Source: Vicinamibacterales bacterium (GTDB lineage Bacteria; Acidobacteriota; Vicinamibacteria; Vicinamibacterales; Fen-181). Taken from it: a stretch of 64,000 nt of DNA. This document shows positions 16,624-26,433 of the stretch, in pieces (position 1 is the stretch's first letter; each line of letters opens with the position of its first letter). The stretch is taken from assembly GCA_036504215.1 (NCBI GenBank), contig DASXVO010000038.1, positions 1 to 64,000 on the forward strand, read 5' to 3'. A program made the position numbers and the translations under genes. The notes under the pieces were generated by a model. The model searched no databases, was not told where the DNA came from, and saw nothing but the letters and a program-made list of their open reading frames with translations.

Positions 16624-17877
16624 GTGATCGCAGCCGATTTCGTCATCAGGAACACGAGGCAGGTCATCACCTGCGCCGGCCCGGCGCCCCGATCCGGCGC
16701 GGCGCAGCACGACGTCGCTCCCCTCGCCAACGGGGTGGTCGCCTCTCGTCGCGGCCGCATCGTCTTTGTCGGCACCGCGTCCGACGCGGAGGCCCTCCTC
16801 GACGTCGACGCCACCGCGGTGGTCGTGGACGCAGGCGGCGGGACCGTCATGCCCGGCTTCGTCGATCCACACACCCACGTCATCTACGGCGGCGACCGCC
16901 GCGAGGAACTGCGCCAACGCCTGGCTGGTGCGACCTACGCCGAGATCGCCGCGTCTGGCGGTGGCATTCTCAGCACCGTGCGCGCCACACGCGAGGCCAC
17001 CGAGAACGACCTCGTGGACTCCGCGAAATGCCGACTCGCCGAGATGCTTCGCTGCGGGACGACCACAGCCGAAGCCAAGAGCGGGTACGGGCTCGAAACA
17101 GCAGCCGAGCTGAAGATGCTGCGGGCGATCCGACGCTTGTCGGCCTCTCAACCCATCGAGTTGGTGCCCACGTTCCTCGGAGCGCATGAGATTCCGGTCG
17201 AGTACCGGGACCGGCGGCAGGAGTACGTGGATTTGCTCGTCCGCGAGATGATCCCGACGGTGGCGGCGCAGCATCTTGCGAAGTGGTGTGACGTGTTCTG
17301 TGAAGTGGGCGTCTTCACGCCCGCCGAATCGCGGGCCATCCTCGAAGCCGGTACCGCGGCCGGCCTGCGGCCGCGCATCCATGCCGACGAACTCGCGGCA
17401 TCCGGCGGATCGGACGTCGCCGCAGAGGTTGGGGCGCGATCGGCCGACCACCTGCTGTTCGTGCAGCCCGCGTCGGCCGATAGGATGGCACGTTCCGGAG
17501 TCGTCGCGACGCTGCTGCCCGCGGCGGCCTTCTACCTCAAGCTCGGCGCGTATGCCCCGGCTCGCATGCTCATCGAACACGGGGTGCCCGTCGCCCTGGC
17601 CACCGACCTGAATCCCGGCGGCGGGTTCACACCGTCGATGCCGTTTGTCATCACGCTGGCATGCTTCGGGATGAAGATGACGCTGGAGGAGGCGCTGGTC
17701 GCCGCCACGCTCAACGCGGCCTACGCCATCGACCGCGATCGCGACGTGGGCAGCCTCGAGGCCGGCAAGCAGTTGGACGCCGTTGTCGTCGACGGCGACG
17801 CCATCGATCTAATCAGGGTTGGGGCTCGGGCCATCACGGCGGTCGTCAAGAACGGTGTCGTCGTCAGTACATCCTGA
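16624..17877 (+). CDS. hutI: Imidazolonepropionase HutI
   Basis: 417 residues. It hydrolyses imidazolone-5-propanoate to formiminoglutamate in histidine degradation. It is a metal-dependent amidohydrolase: metal-binding HxH in MPGFVDPHTHVIYGG, further ligands in TFLGAHEIP and RIHADELAASGGSD, and the catalytic Asp in ATDLNPGG. The start is GTG 16624, 4 nt after the divIVA stop, so translation may be coupled. No hutH, hutU or hutG occurs in the window, so the rest of the pathway must lie elsewhere. The 3' end overlaps the convergent unknown gene by 14 bp. Confidence 0.95.
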   Translation: MIAADFVIRNTRQVITCAGPAPRSGAAQHDVAPLANGVVASRRGRIVFVGTASDAEALLDVDATAVVVDAGGGTVMPGFVDPHTHVIYGGDRREELRQRLAGATYAEIAASGGGILSTVRATREATENDLVDSAKCRLAEMLRCGTTTAEAKSGYGLETAAELKMLRAIRRLSASQPIELVPTFLGAHEIPVEYRDRRQEYVDLLVREMIPTVAAQHLAKWCDVFCEVGVFTPAESRAILEAGTAAGLRPRIHADELAASGGSDVAAEVGARSADHLLFVQPASADRMARSGVVATLLPAAAFYLKLGAYAPARMLIEHGVPVALATDLNPGGGFTPSMPFVITLACFGMKMTLEEALVAATLNAAYAIDRDRDVGSLEAGKQLDAVVVDGDAIDLIRVGARAITAVVKNGVVVSTS

Positions 17878-19693: not shown

Positions 19694-20302
19694 TCACTCC
19701 GGGAGTGATTTCCGGCCTGCGGCGAGGCGCGCGATCAGGTCGGCCAGCATCCACTGTGTCAGGCCCCATACGAGACGGCCTTCGTAGCGATAGGCAGGCG
19801 GTACCTGCGGCAGCCAACGCGCCGCCCACACCCATGGACGACGCGTTGCCCACCCCGTGAAGTACGTCAGGGGAATCCAGACCGTCTCCTGCACCTCGGC
19901 ACTCGGCCGCAGGTCGGGCAGCCTCGCCACGCAGAAGACGTAGGGCACGATGGCACGCAGCCCTTTCGCGCCCGTGCCCTGGAACCGAACCACGCTCAGT
20001 CGGCCCAACAGCTCGCCATCGGCGGCGAGGTCGAGGCCCACCTCCTCGCATGTCTCGCGGATGGCGCATTCGATCATGGCGCCGTCGTTCGGTTCGCGCT
20101 TGCCGCCTGGCCAGGCCATGTGGCCCGACCACGGGTCTCCGCGGCGCCTCGCCCGTCTGATGAACAACAACTCCACGCCTGCGCGGCCCTCGTGCAGCAC
20201 CGCGGCGACGGCGGCCGCGCGGCCGTCAACCTCCTCTGCGGGGCTGGCCACCGTCTCGATCAGTGCAGCACGGACGTCCGCGAGACCCAGGCTGGAGGTC
20301 AT
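19694..20302 (-). CDS. NUDIX hydrolase, CoA-pyrophosphatase-like
   Basis: 202 residues. The NUDIX box is complete: GGKREPNDGAMIECAIRETC followed by EEVGL, giving metal-binding glutamates. Residues before it (LLFIRRARRRGDPWSGHMAW) match the CoA-pyrophosphatase (NudL/YeaB) group, which cleaves CoA to phosphopantetheine; substrate is inferred. It starts 6 nt after the stop of the C69 dipeptidase and ends the minus-strand block that begins near 26.4 kb. Confidence 0.9.
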   Translation of the reverse strand: MTSSLGLADVRAALIETVASPAEEVDGRAAAVAAVLHEGRAGVELLFIRRARRRGDPWSGHMAWPGGKREPNDGAMIECAIRETCEEVGLDLAADGELLGRLSVVRFQGTGAKGLRAIVPYVFCVARLPDLRPSAEVQETVWIPLTYFTGWATRRPWVWAARWLPQVPPAYRYEGRLVWGLTQWMLADLIARLAAGRKSLPE

Positions 20303-20308
20303 CGGCGT

Positions 20309-21904
20309 CTACCGCACGAGCGGCTTATAGCCGATCAACTCGTTCCACCACTGCGGATAGCCGACGGTCAGGCCGTCGACCGTCCCCAAGGCGTACTTGC
20401 CGAGCAGGGTGTCGCCGAGCGTCAGCCATTCGCGCTGCCACGCGACGGCGTTCGAGTCGCCGAACTGGGTGATGATGTTGATGGCCGCCTTCGGATCCTT
20501 GCCGTACATTCTCGCGGCAGCCTCGAGAATCCTCGGCGTCACCTCGTAGAGCATCTGCTGCCGCGGTTCGCGCGCCGCGCGCACGTGCTTGATCGCCTCG
20601 CTGTAGTGCAGTTGGGCCATCTGCTGCACGTAGATGTTCGTCCACCAGCCCGATTCCCGGTCGAACACCCCGTAGCGGTCGCCGCGTCCGAGCGAGGCCG
20701 GCAGTTCGGTCATCGCCGGCCAGAGCGGCGTGAGGTACGACGTATCCGGCGCGCCGTAACCGAACCAACTCGTCCCGCGCAACGGTTCGGGCAGTGCCGC
20801 GTTCACCTGGCCGACGTGCAGATAGTACGTGCGCTGCACGTTGATGCTGCGCTCGAAGGACCCTTTCCCGCCCTTGTTGACATAGCGGATTGGGTCGCCC
20901 CAGGGACCGGCGGCGGGTCCCTTCGTCATGTCGTAGGGCGTGCCCTCGTAGTAGTCCGCGGCAATCCTCCTGACGTCTTCGACCGTCAGCGGGTGATCGG
21001 GCTTCACGGAGAACGGATAGGAGGCCTGGTTGGCGGCCAGCTTCAGCGACGGCGCAACCAGGTCGTACGCGCGCCACTCGCGCCGCGACGATGTCACCGG
21101 TTCGTCCGGCGCGTAGATCTCATGAACGACGAAGGGCTTCCCTGCCTTCGGATCGAACCAGCCCTGCTCGACCGCAAACGACACGAGCTTCGGCGCGGCC
21201 ATCACGTTGGCCTTGTCGGCCAGATTGATCTCGCCGATCCGCGCGCGATTCGCCGCGACGAAGACGTGGTCCTCGGGAATCCGCACGGCGGCCCACATGT
21301 CGCGCCCGTAGAACTCGGCAACCCATGTCTCGTTCCCGTCCGTGATGGTCATCGTCTCGCCACCGCCGCCGGTTTCGGTCAGGAAACTGAACTCCTCGAC
21401 CAGCTTGCCCATGACCTGCACGGCTTCGCGCGCGGTCGCCGCCCGCTCGAGTGCCACATCCTGCAGCAGCCAGCAGTCGGCCAGGCCGTCGCCCTTCGTG
21501 TACATCACGTCCTTGACCTTCTTGCCGCGCTCGGTGGACGTGTCGATGCCAAACGTCGATTCCGCGATGGCGACGCCCTTCTCGTTCATGAACGAGTAGC
21601 GCGACATGAAGTAGCGATAGGTGTGCTTCACCTGCGGCATGGTCCCGAGCACGTTGCCGCCCTCGATCGTGTGTGCGTTGGCGACGATCTTCCGTGTCGC
21701 GCCGTCCGGCCAGTCCTGCGCCGGGACGATGCGCAGCGGAAAGTTCGCCACGCTGGAATCGTCGTTGTGCGAGATGACCGTCGTCCCGTCCGCCATCGCC
21801 TTCTTGCCGATACCGAGAATCGTGCACGCGTCCAGCACCTGGCTCCACTGGAAGGCCACGAGACCCACCAGCACCCATGCAACCGCCTTCGAATGCCTCT
21901 TCAT
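20309..21904 (-). CDS. Secreted C69-family dipeptidase
   Basis: 531 residues. After a signal peptide (AVAWVLVGLVAFQWSQVLDA) the mature protein starts at Cys in ACTILGIGKKAM, the N-terminal nucleophile of the Ntn-hydrolase fold used by PepD/C69 enzymes. ISHNDDSS and GESTFG-like AIAESTFGID follow, as in the family. It would cleave dipeptides outside the cytoplasm. ATG 21904 follows GGAGGACGAGGC, and a GC-rich palindrome lies just upstream. It sits between an AstE-like hydrolase and the NUDIX gene. Confidence 0.88.
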   Translation of the reverse strand: MKRHSKAVAWVLVGLVAFQWSQVLDACTILGIGKKAMADGTTVISHNDDSSVANFPLRIVPAQDWPDGATRKIVANAHTIEGGNVLGTMPQVKHTYRYFMSRYSFMNEKGVAIAESTFGIDTSTERGKKVKDVMYTKGDGLADCWLLQDVALERAATAREAVQVMGKLVEEFSFLTETGGGGETMTITDGNETWVAEFYGRDMWAAVRIPEDHVFVAANRARIGEINLADKANVMAAPKLVSFAVEQGWFDPKAGKPFVVHEIYAPDEPVTSSRREWRAYDLVAPSLKLAANQASYPFSVKPDHPLTVEDVRRIAADYYEGTPYDMTKGPAAGPWGDPIRYVNKGGKGSFERSINVQRTYYLHVGQVNAALPEPLRGTSWFGYGAPDTSYLTPLWPAMTELPASLGRGDRYGVFDRESGWWTNIYVQQMAQLHYSEAIKHVRAAREPRQQMLYEVTPRILEAAARMYGKDPKAAINIITQFGDSNAVAWQREWLTLGDTLLGKYALGTVDGLTVGYPQWWNELIGYKPLVR

Positions 21905-21916
21905 GCCTCGTCCTCC

Positions 21917-21940
21917 GGCGGGTCTGAACCCCCGCCCCAC
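21917..21940. repeat. GC-rich palindromic element, copy 1
   Basis: A 24-bp element with arms GGCGGG and CCCGCC, ending CCCCAC. It lies 12 nt upstream of the C69 start codon. It resembles the copy at 25404-25427 in length, arms and flank. Confidence 0.75.
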
Positions 21941-21980
21941 AACACACCGTCGGCAGGACTGCCGCGGCCCACCAACCGTG

Positions 21981-22026
21981 TCACTGTCCGCCGTTCCGCC
22001 TGCCCGCCTCTCCGTCTGGCCTCCTG
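21981..22026. repeat. C-rich CCGCC tract
   Basis: A pyrimidine-biased run of CCGCC words between the AstE-like stop and the C69 leader. It shares the exact 14-mer CCGCCTGCCCGCCT (21996-22009) with the intergenic tract at 32286-32299. Confidence 0.6.
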
Positions 22027-22027
22027 C

Positions 22028-23239
22028 CTAGTCGAAGAACACCCTGCGTCGATTCGCCTTCGCCGGGTCGTGCAGGAAATGACCGATTCCGTGCTGCATG
22101 ACGTCTGCGTAGGTCGGCCACGTGACGCGCACGATCTTGTCCGGGTAGAACTCACCCATCTGCTTCATCACCTCGAACGCGCCGGCCAGGTGCCGGCCGA
22201 CCCGGTAGTCGAGCGAGGCGCCGGTCTTCAGGCTGTAATCCGTGTACAGCAGGCCGCGCGTGGACGCCGTCTGGATGAACTCGTCCTTGCCGGCCAGCAT
22301 CAACTGTTCGGTCATCGGACCCGCGAACTTCTCGATGAAGGGTTCGGGCGTTTCCATCAGCACGGCGAGGCTGTCCGTGAAATCGCCCACCTCGCGGTGC
22401 GTGAGACCGCGCAGCGACTTCGGTGACGTCTCCGTCTTCATCGGGAACTGTTCGGCAGAGAGCGTCATCGCCGCCATCATGCACATCTCGTCGGCGCGCT
22501 GGTGGCACACGTAGGTACTGACGACCGGGTAGCCGAGCGACGCCTCGTGGATATCGATCGTCATGTCGATCTTCTCGTGGCGAATCAGCTCGCTGATGGC
22601 GAATGCCGTTCGCTCCGTCAGGTTTCCGTCCGGCCGCCCTGGAAACGTGCGATTGAGGTTGCGGCTGTCCTGGTACGCCAGGTTCTGTGTCGAGGGGTAG
22701 TGCACGAACGTGAATGGATCGGGCCACTGCTCGAGAGGGTGTGTCTCGCGGTCGCCGATCCGGTACTGCTTCTCACCCCAGGGGGTGCGGATGTGGAAGA
22801 ACGGCGGGTACGCGTTGCCAAGCATGCCGAGCGTCGACGCGCTCATGTTCGCGCGCGGAATGATGAACACCCGCCCGCGCGTCACCGCGATGTTCTCCAT
22901 CATGACGTAGGCGGCCATCGGCCCCGCCGGCTCGTAGGCGTGCATGCCACCGATGAGCAGCACCGAACCGCCCGGCACCCCCGAGTCGAACACGTAGATG
23001 GACGTGTCCATCAGCGTGCCGGCGATGCCGCTGAAATACGCGCTCAATGGCACGCGTCTCGTGAACGCATCGGAGGCGACGACCGTCTCCTGGTACGCGC
23101 GGAGCGCGCGAATGTCCTTCGTGCCGAAGACCATCAGGAGGACGGCCCCGACCAGCAGCGCGATCCGCCGCGCCATCAGCGTCCGGCTGCCCGTCGCCGC
23201 CTGTCCCGATTCAAGTTCCTGCTCGACGCTCGTCGTCAC
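22028..23239 (-). CDS. AstE/AspA-like zinc metallohydrolase with N-terminal anchor
   Basis: 403 residues. An N-terminal membrane segment (RRIALLVGAVLLMVFGTKDI) precedes a succinylglutamate-desuccinylase/aspartoacylase-like M14 domain. Zinc ligands appear in LIGGMHAYEPAG (His, Glu) with a third candidate downstream in TIDIHEASLG, and NRTFPGRP is a substrate-loop-like motif. The family removes acyl or amino-acid groups from amino acids and small peptides. GTG 23239 has GAGG at good spacing. It starts 9 nt after the stop of the 57-residue membrane protein, so co-translation is likely. The true substrate is unknown. Confidence 0.82.
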   Translation of the reverse strand: MTTSVEQELESGQAATGSRTLMARRIALLVGAVLLMVFGTKDIRALRAYQETVVASDAFTRRVPLSAYFSGIAGTLMDTSIYVFDSGVPGGSVLLIGGMHAYEPAGPMAAYVMMENIAVTRGRVFIIPRANMSASTLGMLGNAYPPFFHIRTPWGEKQYRIGDRETHPLEQWPDPFTFVHYPSTQNLAYQDSRNLNRTFPGRPDGNLTERTAFAISELIRHEKIDMTIDIHEASLGYPVVSTYVCHQRADEMCMMAAMTLSAEQFPMKTETSPKSLRGLTHREVGDFTDSLAVLMETPEPFIEKFAGPMTEQLMLAGKDEFIQTASTRGLLYTDYSLKTGASLDYRVGRHLAGAFEVMKQMGEFYPDKIVRVTWPTYADVMQHGIGHFLHDPAKANRRRVFFD

Positions 23240-23248
23240 CTGATGACC

Positions 23249-23422
23249 TCACTTGATGTGGAGCGCGCGGAGAATGAACGGGATGACCGTGTAGGCGTAC
23301 ACGATGTCGTAGGCGAGGCCGGGCCGGCTCTTCCTGCGGAACAGTCGCGACAGCAGGAGCGCGGCCGCCAGGCCTGCCATGAGGAAGTAGATCTGGTGAA
23401 TCACTTGCTGCGTCAGAATCAT
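23249..23422 (-). CDS. 57-residue membrane protein in the permease operon
   Basis: The frame begins MILTQQVIHQIYFLMAGLAA, continues through a hydrophobic helix (about 10-28), a basic loop RLFRRKSRP and a second hydrophobic segment (YDIVYAYTVIPFILRAL). Gaps of 12 nt to the permease stop and 9 nt to the AstE-like start leave no room for separate promoters. It is probably an inner-membrane accessory subunit of the preceding permease, as small membrane subunits often are. I do not recognise its family. Confidence 0.75.
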   Translation of the reverse strand: MILTQQVIHQIYFLMAGLAAALLLSRLFRRKSRPGLAYDIVYAYTVIPFILRALHIK

Positions 23423-23434
23423 CGGTGTGCCCTG

Positions 23435-24736
23435 CTAGTACCTGACCAGGAACCCGAACCTGGTCGAGAACACGAGCATTCCCAGCGCTACGAGACCCAT
23501 GATGAGCCACGGGACCGCGGTGGCTTTCAGGAACGAAGTGTAGCTCCCGTGGAACCCGACTGTCTCAATGGCCGTGCGGCCCACGATGCGCGAGGGCGGC
23601 AGGCAGTCGCCGAGGGCGAACAACAGGCTGAACGCCGCCGCCACGACCGTGACGTTGGCACCGACCGCGTTGAAGACGAAGATCAGCGGCGTTCCGAGGA
23701 TGACCGCGCTGCCGAAGCCGAGCGACCCCTGCGCCAGCGGGCACACGAAGAGCGAGGTGACATAGATCCCGAGAATGGGCAGTGCGACGAAGCTGATCGC
23801 AATCAGGCCGCGCACGCCGGTGGCCGCCAGGATGTTGACCAGCACCCCAACGCTCACCATGGTCGCCACGAGTGGAAAGACCTGTTCCACCGTCTGGTTC
23901 ACGACCGCGAGCCAGCGGGATGCCGGACGCCGCACCGGGTCGATCGCCACCGTCGCCAGCGCACAGATGACGAAGATGAGCGGGAATCCAAGCGTCGGCA
24001 GCGTGAAGGCGGAGTATTTGGCCGCGGCGGCCAGCGCGACCAGAATCACCAACGGGATGGCCGCGCGCCACCAGGTCATCCCCGGCGGCAGCGGCGGCAA
24101 CCCGGCGAGAATCGCTTCCTTCGCCTGCGGCACCGCGCCCCACCCGAGATACAGCACGGTGAAGATCGTGACGACAAGCACCGGAACGAGGAGCACGAGG
24201 TCGAAGCCGACGTACGGTATGTTCGCCCCGGCGGCCATCAGCATCGCCCACACGTTGATGGGCGGGGCCACCGCCGACAGGATGCCGAGCATGAAGACGA
24301 ACGCGGCGGTGCGCTCCTCCGACAGCCCCATCAGTCGGAGAACGGCGGCCACGAGACCTCCGACGACCAACACCGAAACGACGCCGGCTCCCGTCAGCGC
24401 GCCGGGGATCAGCATCAGGCCGGCGAGGACCAGCAACAGCAGCCACTTCCGCCGATGCAACCGGACCACCAGGGCGCGCACGAGCGCATTCATGGCGCCC
24501 ACCTCCGAGTACGCGTTCATGAACACGCACGCCGTGATGAAGATGAACGCGAGGTCGAGGAACGTGAACGTTCCCTCGACGAACAGGTGCGCCGGAAAGC
24601 CCAGTCCGGCGACCAGTGCCCCCACCAGCGCCGTGATCACCATCGACAACTCCGGCGATCGGAGCCGCCAACTGCAGACGACAAAGGTCACCACCATCGC
24701 CGCCAGCGTGTAGGTCGTCGTCACGTACGTGCTCAC
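23435..24736 (-). CDS. DctM/ion-transporter-superfamily permease
   Basis: 433 residues with about 11-12 membrane helices. The pattern of two inverted halves with a conserved loop (SAVAPPINVWAMLMAAGANI, then PYVGF) is typical of TRAP large subunits and related anion transporters. TRAP systems need a small membrane subunit and a periplasmic binding protein. Here a 57-residue membrane protein follows and a DUF6305-like exported protein precedes, which may fill those roles (inference). GTG 24736 is chosen because GGGGAG lies about 8 nt upstream; a TTG at 24757 is the alternative. Confidence 0.8.
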   Translation of the reverse strand: MSTYVTTTYTLAAMVVTFVVCSWRLRSPELSMVITALVGALVAGLGFPAHLFVEGTFTFLDLAFIFITACVFMNAYSEVGAMNALVRALVVRLHRRKWLLLLVLAGLMLIPGALTGAGVVSVLVVGGLVAAVLRLMGLSEERTAAFVFMLGILSAVAPPINVWAMLMAAGANIPYVGFDLVLLVPVLVVTIFTVLYLGWGAVPQAKEAILAGLPPLPPGMTWWRAAIPLVILVALAAAAKYSAFTLPTLGFPLIFVICALATVAIDPVRRPASRWLAVVNQTVEQVFPLVATMVSVGVLVNILAATGVRGLIAISFVALPILGIYVTSLFVCPLAQGSLGFGSAVILGTPLIFVFNAVGANVTVVAAAFSLLFALGDCLPPSRIVGRTAIETVGFHGSYTSFLKATAVPWLIMGLVALGMLVFSTRFGFLVRY

Positions 24737-24790
24737 GTCGGTCTCCCCGGAGGTCAAGCCTGCGCGGCTGCGCCTGACTGCGGCGAACCG

Positions 24791-25381
24791 CTACTTCGCG
24801 TACATCTTCTTCACGACTTCGCCGAAGTCCATCGCATCGTCGATCAGCGTGAGCGGCGCGCCGGTCTTCTTGGCGATCGCGTCGAAACGGCCGTCTTCGT
24901 TGCCGTCCTTCTTCACGACCAGGTACTGCGCGTTCGGCGCGACGGCGTCGACGCAGCGTTCGTCGGCGCCGCCCGGCTTGCCGCGCCGAGCCTTGCCCTC
25001 GAGCAGCACGGCCACGACCTGCATCTTCTGCCTCTTCGCCTCGGCAATCACGGCGTTGAGGCGGTCGATCTCCTGGTCGATCGTGATGCCCGACGCGCCC
25101 AGCCCCTTGGCCGTGGACCCGATGACCACGAACATCGTCTTGAACGCCTTCTTCTGGAGGTCGGCGACCTTCGGTTCGGCGCTGTACTCGAAGTCGGTGA
25201 CGACGCCGGTACGCTGGATGAGCAGGCGCGACATCTTGGCGCCGGGGCCCTGACCGGCATTCGTGATCAGAATTGGAAGACCGCCCTTGACCGGTGCCGC
25301 ACCGGACACGGCCGCGTGAGCGGGCGCCGCACCGAGGAACATCGCCGCCGCCATCAGCACGAACCAGACGCTGCGTTTCAT
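24791..25381 (-). CDS. DUF6305-like exported protein
   Basis: 196 residues. A signal peptide (RSVWFVLMAAAMFLGAAPAHA) is followed by a Rossmann-like domain with LPILITNAGQGPGAKMSRLL, FKTMFVVIGSTAKGLGASGI, VVAVLLEGKARRG and YLVVKKDGNEDGRFDAIAKK. This pattern matches my memory of the uncharacterised DUF6305 family. It would act in the periplasm. It lies between the poly-gamma-glutamate-system-type gene and the permease, all on one strand. Function is unknown; a substrate-binding role beside the permease is a hypothesis. Confidence 0.72.
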   Translation of the reverse strand: MKRSVWFVLMAAAMFLGAAPAHAAVSGAAPVKGGLPILITNAGQGPGAKMSRLLIQRTGVVTDFEYSAEPKVADLQKKAFKTMFVVIGSTAKGLGASGITIDQEIDRLNAVIAEAKRQKMQVVAVLLEGKARRGKPGGADERCVDAVAPNAQYLVVKKDGNEDGRFDAIAKKTGAPLTLIDDAMDFGEVVKKMYAK

Positions 25382-25403
25382 GACCGCTCCTTTGCAGTTC
25401 CAA

Positions 25404-25427
25404 GGCGGGTCCGGCGACCCGCCCCAC
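25404..25427. repeat. GC-rich palindromic element, copy 2
   Basis: A 24-bp near-perfect palindrome with arms GGCGGGTC and GACCCGCC, ending CCCCAC. It lies 22 nt upstream of the DUF6305-like start. See copy 1 at 21917-21940. Confidence 0.8.
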
Positions 25428-25434
25428 AGGCTGC

Positions 25435-26433
25435 CTACTCCCGTCGGTACACCTCGCCCACGCCAATTGGCGGGAGCGGAATCGGATCGAACGGCAGATG
25501 GTTGTCCCGCGCAAGCCCCCGGACGTGCAGGAGGTGCACCACTGGGACGCCGCGCGACGCGAACTCGAAGACAACGCCTCGCGTCGGTGACCGTGGCAGG
25601 TCGGTCACCCGGCGCACGAGTCCGTTGGGCAGCGTCAGCGAGGCCGGCGTATCGCCGAAACTGGCCGACGAACCGCCGATGTTCACGAAACAACGGATCG
25701 GGCGCCCGGCGGCGGCCGCCTCGTAGAGATGCAGCCGCCGTTCGATGCTGTCCGCCAGCGTCGATCCCTCCACGAACTGGAGCCCGCTCCGGCGCGTCTC
25801 CGCGATCAGCGACGCCCCTGAGTCGTCGAACAGGACGCCCGTGCCGCGGTCGTCGTCACCGCCGGGCGAGACCGCCGCCAGGTGATACGGCAGCACGCCG
25901 TCGGCGCGCAGCCGCGCCTGCATGTCCACGAAGGTGAACCCCGGAAGGTTGGCGCCGTACATCGACGCGCCGACCGAGTAGATGACGACTGGCTCGAGAT
26001 CCAGCGCGCGCGTCGCGCACAGCGTCGCGAGCAGCAGCCCGGGGAACGATCCGCTGGCGCCGATCGCCACTACATCACCCTGATGGAGGCCGGCCGCCCG
26101 AAAATAGCGCACGATCGCGGCCGCGAACGCCGGGTTCGTCGTCGTGCGCTTGGCCTCCACCTCGCCGAGCGACGTCGTCAACGGCGAGAACTCGTCGCCG
26201 ATGAGCGCCGTCTGGTTCGGGTCCACCTGGCGATCGATCGCCAGTCCCCTGGCCTCGCGCAGCGCCTTGATGCTGACGAGCGACCGCGCCATCAGCCGCG
26301 CGGCTTCGATTCCGCGGCTGGCGTCGCCCGTGCGCCCCGGGCCGACGGCAGACTCCGGCGACGTTCTGCCGAAGCAGAGCAGCACCGCACATGACGCGGC
26401 GAGGCACCACGAACGCCTGATGGGGTGAAGCAT
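25435..26433 (-). CDS. Poly-gamma-glutamate-system-type protein (PgsW-like)
   Basis: 332 residues with an N-terminal signal/anchor (RRSWCLAASCAVLLCFG). The body matches the poly-gamma-glutamate system protein family as I recall it: GIEAARLMARSLVSIKALRE, DPNQTALIGDEFSPLTTSLG, EAKRTTTNPAFAA and CFVNIGGSSASFGD. In other genomes the family accompanies pgsB/pgsC capsule genes. Neither pgsB nor pgsC is present here. It is the first gene of a minus-strand block leading into the DUF6305-like gene and the permease. Family call is from memory of motifs; function is inferred from context. Confidence 0.7.
   Translation of the reverse strand: MLHPIRRSWCLAASCAVLLCFGRTSPESAVGPGRTGDASRGIEAARLMARSLVSIKALREARGLAIDRQVDPNQTALIGDEFSPLTTSLGEVEAKRTTTNPAFAAAIVRYFRAAGLHQGDVVAIGASGSFPGLLLATLCATRALDLEPVVIYSVGASMYGANLPGFTFVDMQARLRADGVLPYHLAAVSPGGDDDRGTGVLFDDSGASLIAETRRSGLQFVEGSTLADSIERRLHLYEAAAAGRPIRCFVNIGGSSASFGDTPASLTLPNGLVRRVTDLPRSPTRGVVFEFASRGVPVVHLLHVRGLARDNHLPFDPIPLPPIGVGEVYRRE

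Follow-up and report, generated by a model that had tools for sequence, protein, structure and literature searches.

The locus and its genes

The DNA analysed here, referred to as the window, comprises 64,000 nucleotides of contig DASXVO010000038.1 from a Vicinamibacterales bacterium (Acidobacteriota; assembly GCA_036504215.1). Six genes for exported and membrane proteins occupy positions 20309–26433, and all six were recovered on the minus strand with the short gaps that an earlier reading of the sequence alone had described (Table 1). From the PgsW-like gene to the NUDIX hydrolase gene, the intergenic gaps are 53, 33–54, 12, 9, 87–123 and 6 nt, where ranges reflect alternative starts; the NUDIX gene follows the C69 gene by 6 nt, as had been read. 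Four of the genes form the core of a module, namely those for the DUF6305 protein, a DctM-like permease, a membrane protein of about 50 residues and an anchored AstE-like amidohydrolase. This core is real and widespread, occurring in about ten phyla.

Table 1. Genes of the block and the co-directional neighbour, in window coordinates.
Feature	Coordinates	Strand	Basis or remark
PgsW-like exported/anchored protein (TIGR04332)	25435..26433	-	start ATG 26433
DUF6305 exported protein, Sec signal, single alpha/beta domain	24791..25381	-	PF19823 1.6e-43
Permease, distant DctM/TRAP-M-like ion-transporter-superfamily protein	23435..24757	-	likely start GTG 24736; fold and profile
57-residue membrane protein	23249..23422	-	hydropathy, homologues, codon-position pattern
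AstE/aspartoacylase-type zinc amidohydrolase, N-terminal membrane anchor	22028..23239	-	PF24827 1e-10
Secreted C69-family dipeptidase (N-terminal nucleophile hydrolase)	20309..21940	-	PF03577 5.5e-59; probable start ATG 21904
NUDIX hydrolase, co-directional neighbour outside the conserved module	19694..20302	-	PF00293 5e-13

Recurrence of the module across genomes

When an alignment of the permease was run against 84,980 species genomes, at least 529 relatives were found. Of these, the best 80 loci were analysed, and the neighbour frequencies apply to this nearer part of the permease family. As the permease alone served as query, the counts of its neighbours are unbiased. The AstE-like gene starts within 700 bp downstream of the permease in 73 of the 73 loci with sufficient room. 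A homologue of the small membrane protein, detected with a profile of 64 copies, lies between the two in 75 of 75 loci and was also present in every one of 14 additional loci, among them a divergent subtype. In 35 of 36 loci, a DUF6305 gene with the orientation of the permease gene is found no more than 6 kb from it. Of 42 loci, 28 have a C69 relative no farther than 5 kb away; with 1 to 11 C69 matches per genome in all 22 genomes tested, we estimate the chance of such proximity at a few percent. PgsW and PgsB are encoded near the permease in 17 and 14, respectively, of the 31 loci with long flanks. The sequence-only reading had staked its interpretation on the genes recurring together elsewhere, which they do, and since the core recurs in every testable locus for AstE (73/73) and the small protein (75/75), the block is more than a chance arrangement.

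The hosts of the best 80 loci belong to Acidobacteriota/Aminicenantes, Bacillota, Synergistota, Thermotogota, Atribacterota, Bipolaricaulota, Spirochaetota, Gemmatimonadota and Bacteroidota, with one contig binned as Methanoculleus. This short contig carries a complete module (L071:752–5716; L numbers denote loci) and, because its permease groups with those of Thermotogota, is probably a mis-binned bacterial sequence and not archaeal.

The order of the genes varies between lineages. In Gemmatimonadota (L129, L138), pgsB-pgsC-PgsW-DUF6305-permease-small gene-AstE-C69 all run in one direction, and the gene set of the window corresponds to this full operon minus pgsBC. The same reduced set is found in Synergistota (L073, L074, L075, L083), where the module, including the small gene, is accompanied by C69 and PgsW, with no pgsBC nearby. 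In Bacillota (L068–L070, L089), a divergent pgsBCW group adjoins the module. In a close relative of the window locus (L066), PgsW is located 5.7 kb upstream, and ABC (ATP-binding cassette)-transporter-like genes on the opposite strand lie in between. The window permease groups with that of L066 and then with those of Bacillota, away from the other Acidobacteriota copies, and the clade holding the window permease and those of Bacillota, Synergistota and Thermotogota has a support of 100/100. The window-type permease has therefore likely been passed between phyla, with paralogy as a possible alternative.

A second, divergent subtype of the module has a gamma-glutamyltransferase (GGT; PF01019, 2e-158) encoded directly before DUF6305 (L053, L055–L058, L060), and pgs genes are absent from those loci. 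GGT is also encoded beside the module in L113, L117 and L137. Judged by gene neighbourhoods, the suspected link of the module to gamma-glutamyl enzymes (PgsB/C and GGT) and to C69 is strong. Loci of the Aminicenantes type have two further genes close to the module, often placed between those for DUF6305 and the permease, which encode an M28 peptidase of about 700 residues (PF04389) and a membrane protein of about 200 residues without a Pfam match (L026, L031, L032, L036–L043, L085, L091, L123, L130, L131, L141).

The permease and its small partner

The window permease on its own has no match in Pfam or NCBIfam and stays below the Pfam cut-off for DctM, and sequence profiles retrieved no solved relatives; its homologue in L046 matches DcuC and DctM weakly. 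Profile–profile comparison assigns it to DctM with 96% probability over 404 columns (E 3.5e-9). DcuC and AbgT reached lower profile probabilities, 54% and 0.1%, respectively. The predicted structure (pLDDT, predicted local distance difference test, 91) was best matched in Foldseek by IseQM and SiaQM, the membrane subunits of tripartite ATP-independent periplasmic (TRAP) transporters (template modelling score 0.67–0.69), and ArsB, DASS/INDY and AbgT proteins matched as well. A second structure search found ArsB, NaS1 and SiaQM at Z 25–28 over about 400 residues; SiaQM and IseQM align with the permease at Z 22–25 over a similar length (about 400 residues) and are tied with other members of the ion-transporter superfamily, such as ArsB and NaS1. 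Based on these fold matches and the profile comparison favouring DctM, the permease is a TRAP-M-like member of that superfamily, as had been suspected.

The 57-residue protein has no accepted family match and no match to DctQ. Across loci its homologues are 48–60 residues long, with a common layout of two short hydrophobic segments around a basic loop and a C-terminal tail that is also basic. The window gene and that of L067 differ mainly at third codon positions (13/4/22 by position), so this small open reading frame behaves as a coding gene. The suggestion that a tiny membrane protein is the partner of the transporter fits its near-universal position between permease and AstE.

The DUF6305 and PgsW-like proteins

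PF19823 is the sole family above the cut-off in the DUF6305 protein. Its structural model (pLDDT 95) shows one α/β domain of about 160 residues with a Rossmann/flavodoxin-like arrangement. Most of the invariant residues of GQ and KGxGxxG..E..R sit in loops that come after the parallel strands, or immediately beyond such loops; Q44, K92, E104 and R107 are among the invariant positions. In such domains ligands are usually bound at these loops, and the model thus points to a putative pocket. Comparison with the PDB revealed no clear relative and no binding protein among the matches listed; the best match (Z 10) is to one lobe of UDP-N-acetylglucosamine 2-epimerases, a common α/β arrangement. The protein had been read as a TRAP-type binding protein, which its architecture does not bear out: because it is a single domain and not two-lobed, a binding role is something that we infer.

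DUF6305 was considered as a remote relative of PgsW and rejected (profile comparison, 1%). It also ends very long open frames (L119:1703–3217; L050:9151–11565) in which no other domain was found. One of these, the 804-residue frame of L050, was considered as a natural fusion of GGT and DUF6305; Pfam finds DUF6305 alone, at the C-terminus. These frames are probably extended by GC-rich sequence and not products of fusion.

The PgsW-like protein of the window matches TIGR04332, the poly-gamma-glutamate (PGA) system protein of NCBIfam, with 328.8 bits against a cut-off of 100 (E 3e-98). Its alignment comprises 26 homologues, and no convincing solved relatives of PgsW were found. One paper applies the name of this family to the Francisella capA product (PMC5362203).

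The hydrolases

The AstE-like protein matches PF24827 (AstE_AspA_cat) with 42 bits against a cut-off of 25 (1e-10). H100, E103, H231 and E296, corresponding to the zinc ligands HxxE...H and the catalytic glutamate, are invariant in 30 homologues, and a single N-terminal anchor is predicted to hold the catalytic domain outside the cytoplasm. On these grounds it is likely an active extracytoplasmic zinc amidohydrolase. Its nearest solved relatives are DoeB-type deacetylases.

The C69 protein matches PF03577 with 200.6 bits (cut-off 23) and stays below the NCBIfam equivalog for C69 dipeptidases, 183.8 versus 250. Cys39, the N-terminal catalytic cysteine, lies in the cleavage region where the signal peptide ends and is invariant in 24 homologues. 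By these residues, the active sites of the two hydrolases are intact.

PGA synthesis genes and further copies in the source genome

Neither pgsB nor pgsC is present within the window block, where the PgsA/CapA family also has no match. The source genome (G000; 5.9 Mb in 90 contigs) encodes two PgsW proteins, that of the window and one on another contig (C35:248342–249181). The latter gene is adjoined by a PgsB gene (C35:249964–250908), with a gene of the PgsC family in between. The absence of pgsB and pgsC noted in the sequence-only reading thus holds for the window locus, but neither for the genome nor for the many relatives with pgsBC beside the module. The latter tie the system to PGA synthesis, and the idea that it stands apart from such synthesis is not borne out.

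Among the 297 genomes surveyed in the phylum Acidobacteriota, 25 encode the permease, 26 PgsB and 24 PgsW; permease and PgsB occur together in 23. Counted by family (about 81), both are present in 10, PgsB alone in 2 and the permease alone in none. The Fisher p-value is 6e-29 at the genome level and 4e-11 at the family level; both ignore deeper kinship.

The source genome contains one PgsB, three DUF6305 genes and three permeases of the window family, each beside an AstE gene, and thereby three copies of the module. The two further copies (C60, L051:239–5297; C54, L050:6515–9615) comprise one with C69 and one of the divergent subtype, and each adjoins a gene for a large protein from a cluster resembling TonB-type receptors. 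A gene for a DcuC-family permease adjoins a C69 gene (C54:121358–124098) at a distance of about 20 kb from the second copy of the module.

Relation to known systems

Among known transporters, the module most resembles TRAP systems (DctP-DctQ-DctM; SiaPQM, IseQM). The permease shares the fold of DctM, to which it is remotely related, and its gene is accompanied by those for a small membrane protein and an exported protein. In contrast, the small protein has about 50 residues and two segments, where the TRAP Q subunit has four transmembrane segments and about 160 residues; DUF6305 is a single domain, where TRAP has a two-lobed binding protein (DctP or TAXI); and the module has linked hydrolases. 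Of the three parts that define TRAP transporters, it therefore contains the DctM-type permease and lacks the DctQ-type subunit and the two-lobed binding protein, which makes it TRAP-like.

With the PGA systems PgsBCAE and CapBCADE, the module shares PgsB, PgsC and PgsW homologues as frequent neighbours, and GGT-family enzymes join both. Unlike these systems, the window block is devoid of pgsB, pgsC and a PgsA/CapA match and adds a transporter with AstE and C69 enzymes. The HxxE...H zinc site, the RNxNR motif and the catalytic glutamate of AstE/aspartoacylase and DoeB are conserved in the module enzyme, which differs in its predicted membrane anchoring and extracytoplasmic location and in family-specific conserved blocks. 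Extracytoplasmic gamma-glutamyl cleavage, as performed by PghP, PgdS and GGT/CapD, is proposed for the module enzymes, which have no shown sequence membership in those families. The gamma-PGA hydrolase PghP, a relative of carboxypeptidase A, is likewise a zinc enzyme, and gamma-PGA is also broken down by GGT/CapD (PMC4497714).

No name or description of the module was found in family libraries or the open-access literature, and a search of that literature for DUF6305, PgsW, or TRAP together with PGA returned nothing relevant. Loci resembling pgsBC have been noticed in candidate phyla such as Cloacimonadota, in passages that contain no window-type module (PMC13082233).

Proposed function

The reading preferred here, to which we give about an even chance, is that an atypical TRAP-like secondary transporter and extracytoplasmic processing enzymes serve gamma-glutamyl compounds, including the products of the cell's own PgsBC. 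The assignment to gamma-glutamyl compounds draws on the proximity of PgsB/C and GGT genes and on known PGA-degrading enzymes (PMC4497714); the substrate, the inward direction and an accessory role of the 57-residue protein are proposals. Outside the cytoplasm, C69 and/or GGT, with the AstE-like zinc enzyme, would cleave gamma-glutamyl oligomers or N-acyl-glutamyl conjugates. DUF6305 would hold the released carboxylate in its putative conserved pocket and hand it over to the permease, which would move it inwards by an ion-coupled elevator mechanism. The tiny protein may act as a reduced partner in place of the four-transmembrane Q subunit, and PgsW, usually found with PgsBC, may have been kept in the window block as a polymer-handling protein. 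As the synthase pgsBC is encoded elsewhere in the genome, the window copy is probably a salvage or recycling branch.

Several observations weigh against this reading. DUF6305 is not a two-lobed binding protein, and the characterised enzymes most closely related to AstE are no PGA hydrolases but N-acetyl-diaminobutyrate deacetylases. Among the long-flank loci, PgsW is not nearby in 14 of 31 and PgsB in 17 of 31. Kinship inflates the co-occurrence of permease and PgsB, and the PgsB match in Fretibacterium reaches only 36 bits.

A minority possibility is that the module serves PGA synthesis itself, in that PgsBC receives glutamate or D-glutamate through the transporter and the hydrolases release, trim or size the polymer as it is made, a task performed in Bacillus by PgdS, GGT and CapD. 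The co-directional pgsBCW-module operons of Gemmatimonadota, the adjoining divergent pgsBCW genes of Bacillota and the co-occurrence of permease and PgsB across genomes are consistent with such a role, as is the GGT-family enzyme of known PGA loci (PMC4497714). However, the source genome has three modules for one PgsB, second-subtype loci contain GGT and no pgs genes, and the complete sequence of Fretibacterium (L074) retains the module and a single PgsW without a clear PgsB. The latter, together with the many loci lacking PgsB or PgsW nearby, indicates that PGA synthesis is not obligatory for the module.

Enzymes of the AstE/AspA type act on N-acyl amino acids. A further minority possibility, given slightly less weight, is that the module handles peptides or N-acyl amino acids in general, such as N-acyl-glutamate or -aspartate, and that the pgs link mirrors the amino-acid-fermenting lifestyle of the hosts. 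DoeB-type deacetylases as the nearest structures, the C69 and M28 peptidases nearby and the many hosts from anaerobic lineages agree with this explanation. Yet the associated genes go beyond generic peptidases to the gamma-glutamyl-specific PgsB/C and GGT, and they are physically adjacent to the module, not merely present in the same genomes. A chance neighbourhood of unrelated exported-protein genes, which the non-conserved NUDIX neighbour would fit, can be dismissed for practical purposes, as the survey refutes it with the core order kept in 73/73 and 75/75 testable loci.

Recovery of gamma-glutamyl material, the function preferred above, leads to a wider and more tentative proposal. The DctM-like permease, its obligate partner of about 50 residues and the one-domain DUF6305 could represent an unnamed class of tripartite transporter which, with AstE, C69 and GGT enzymes, would make the PGA produced by PgsBC(W) in many anaerobic phyla a recyclable store and not only a capsule. 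The module suggests a route of PGA turnover in poorly studied anaerobes, places DUF6305 and TIGR04332 in a context that can be tested and may define the lower size limit of a Q-like part in a TRAP-like transporter. It also shows how a gene of about 50 residues, easy to miss, can be nearly invariant in a transporter–hydrolase module across about ten phyla.

Neighbouring genes

Among plasmid records, no match was found. No relative of the NUDIX gene could be recognised in the other 80 permease loci, and the gene is therefore placed outside the module. An imidazolonepropionase-like (HutI) gene, identified by reading the sequence, is located near the block on the plus strand (16624–17877); histidine breakdown likewise ends in glutamate.

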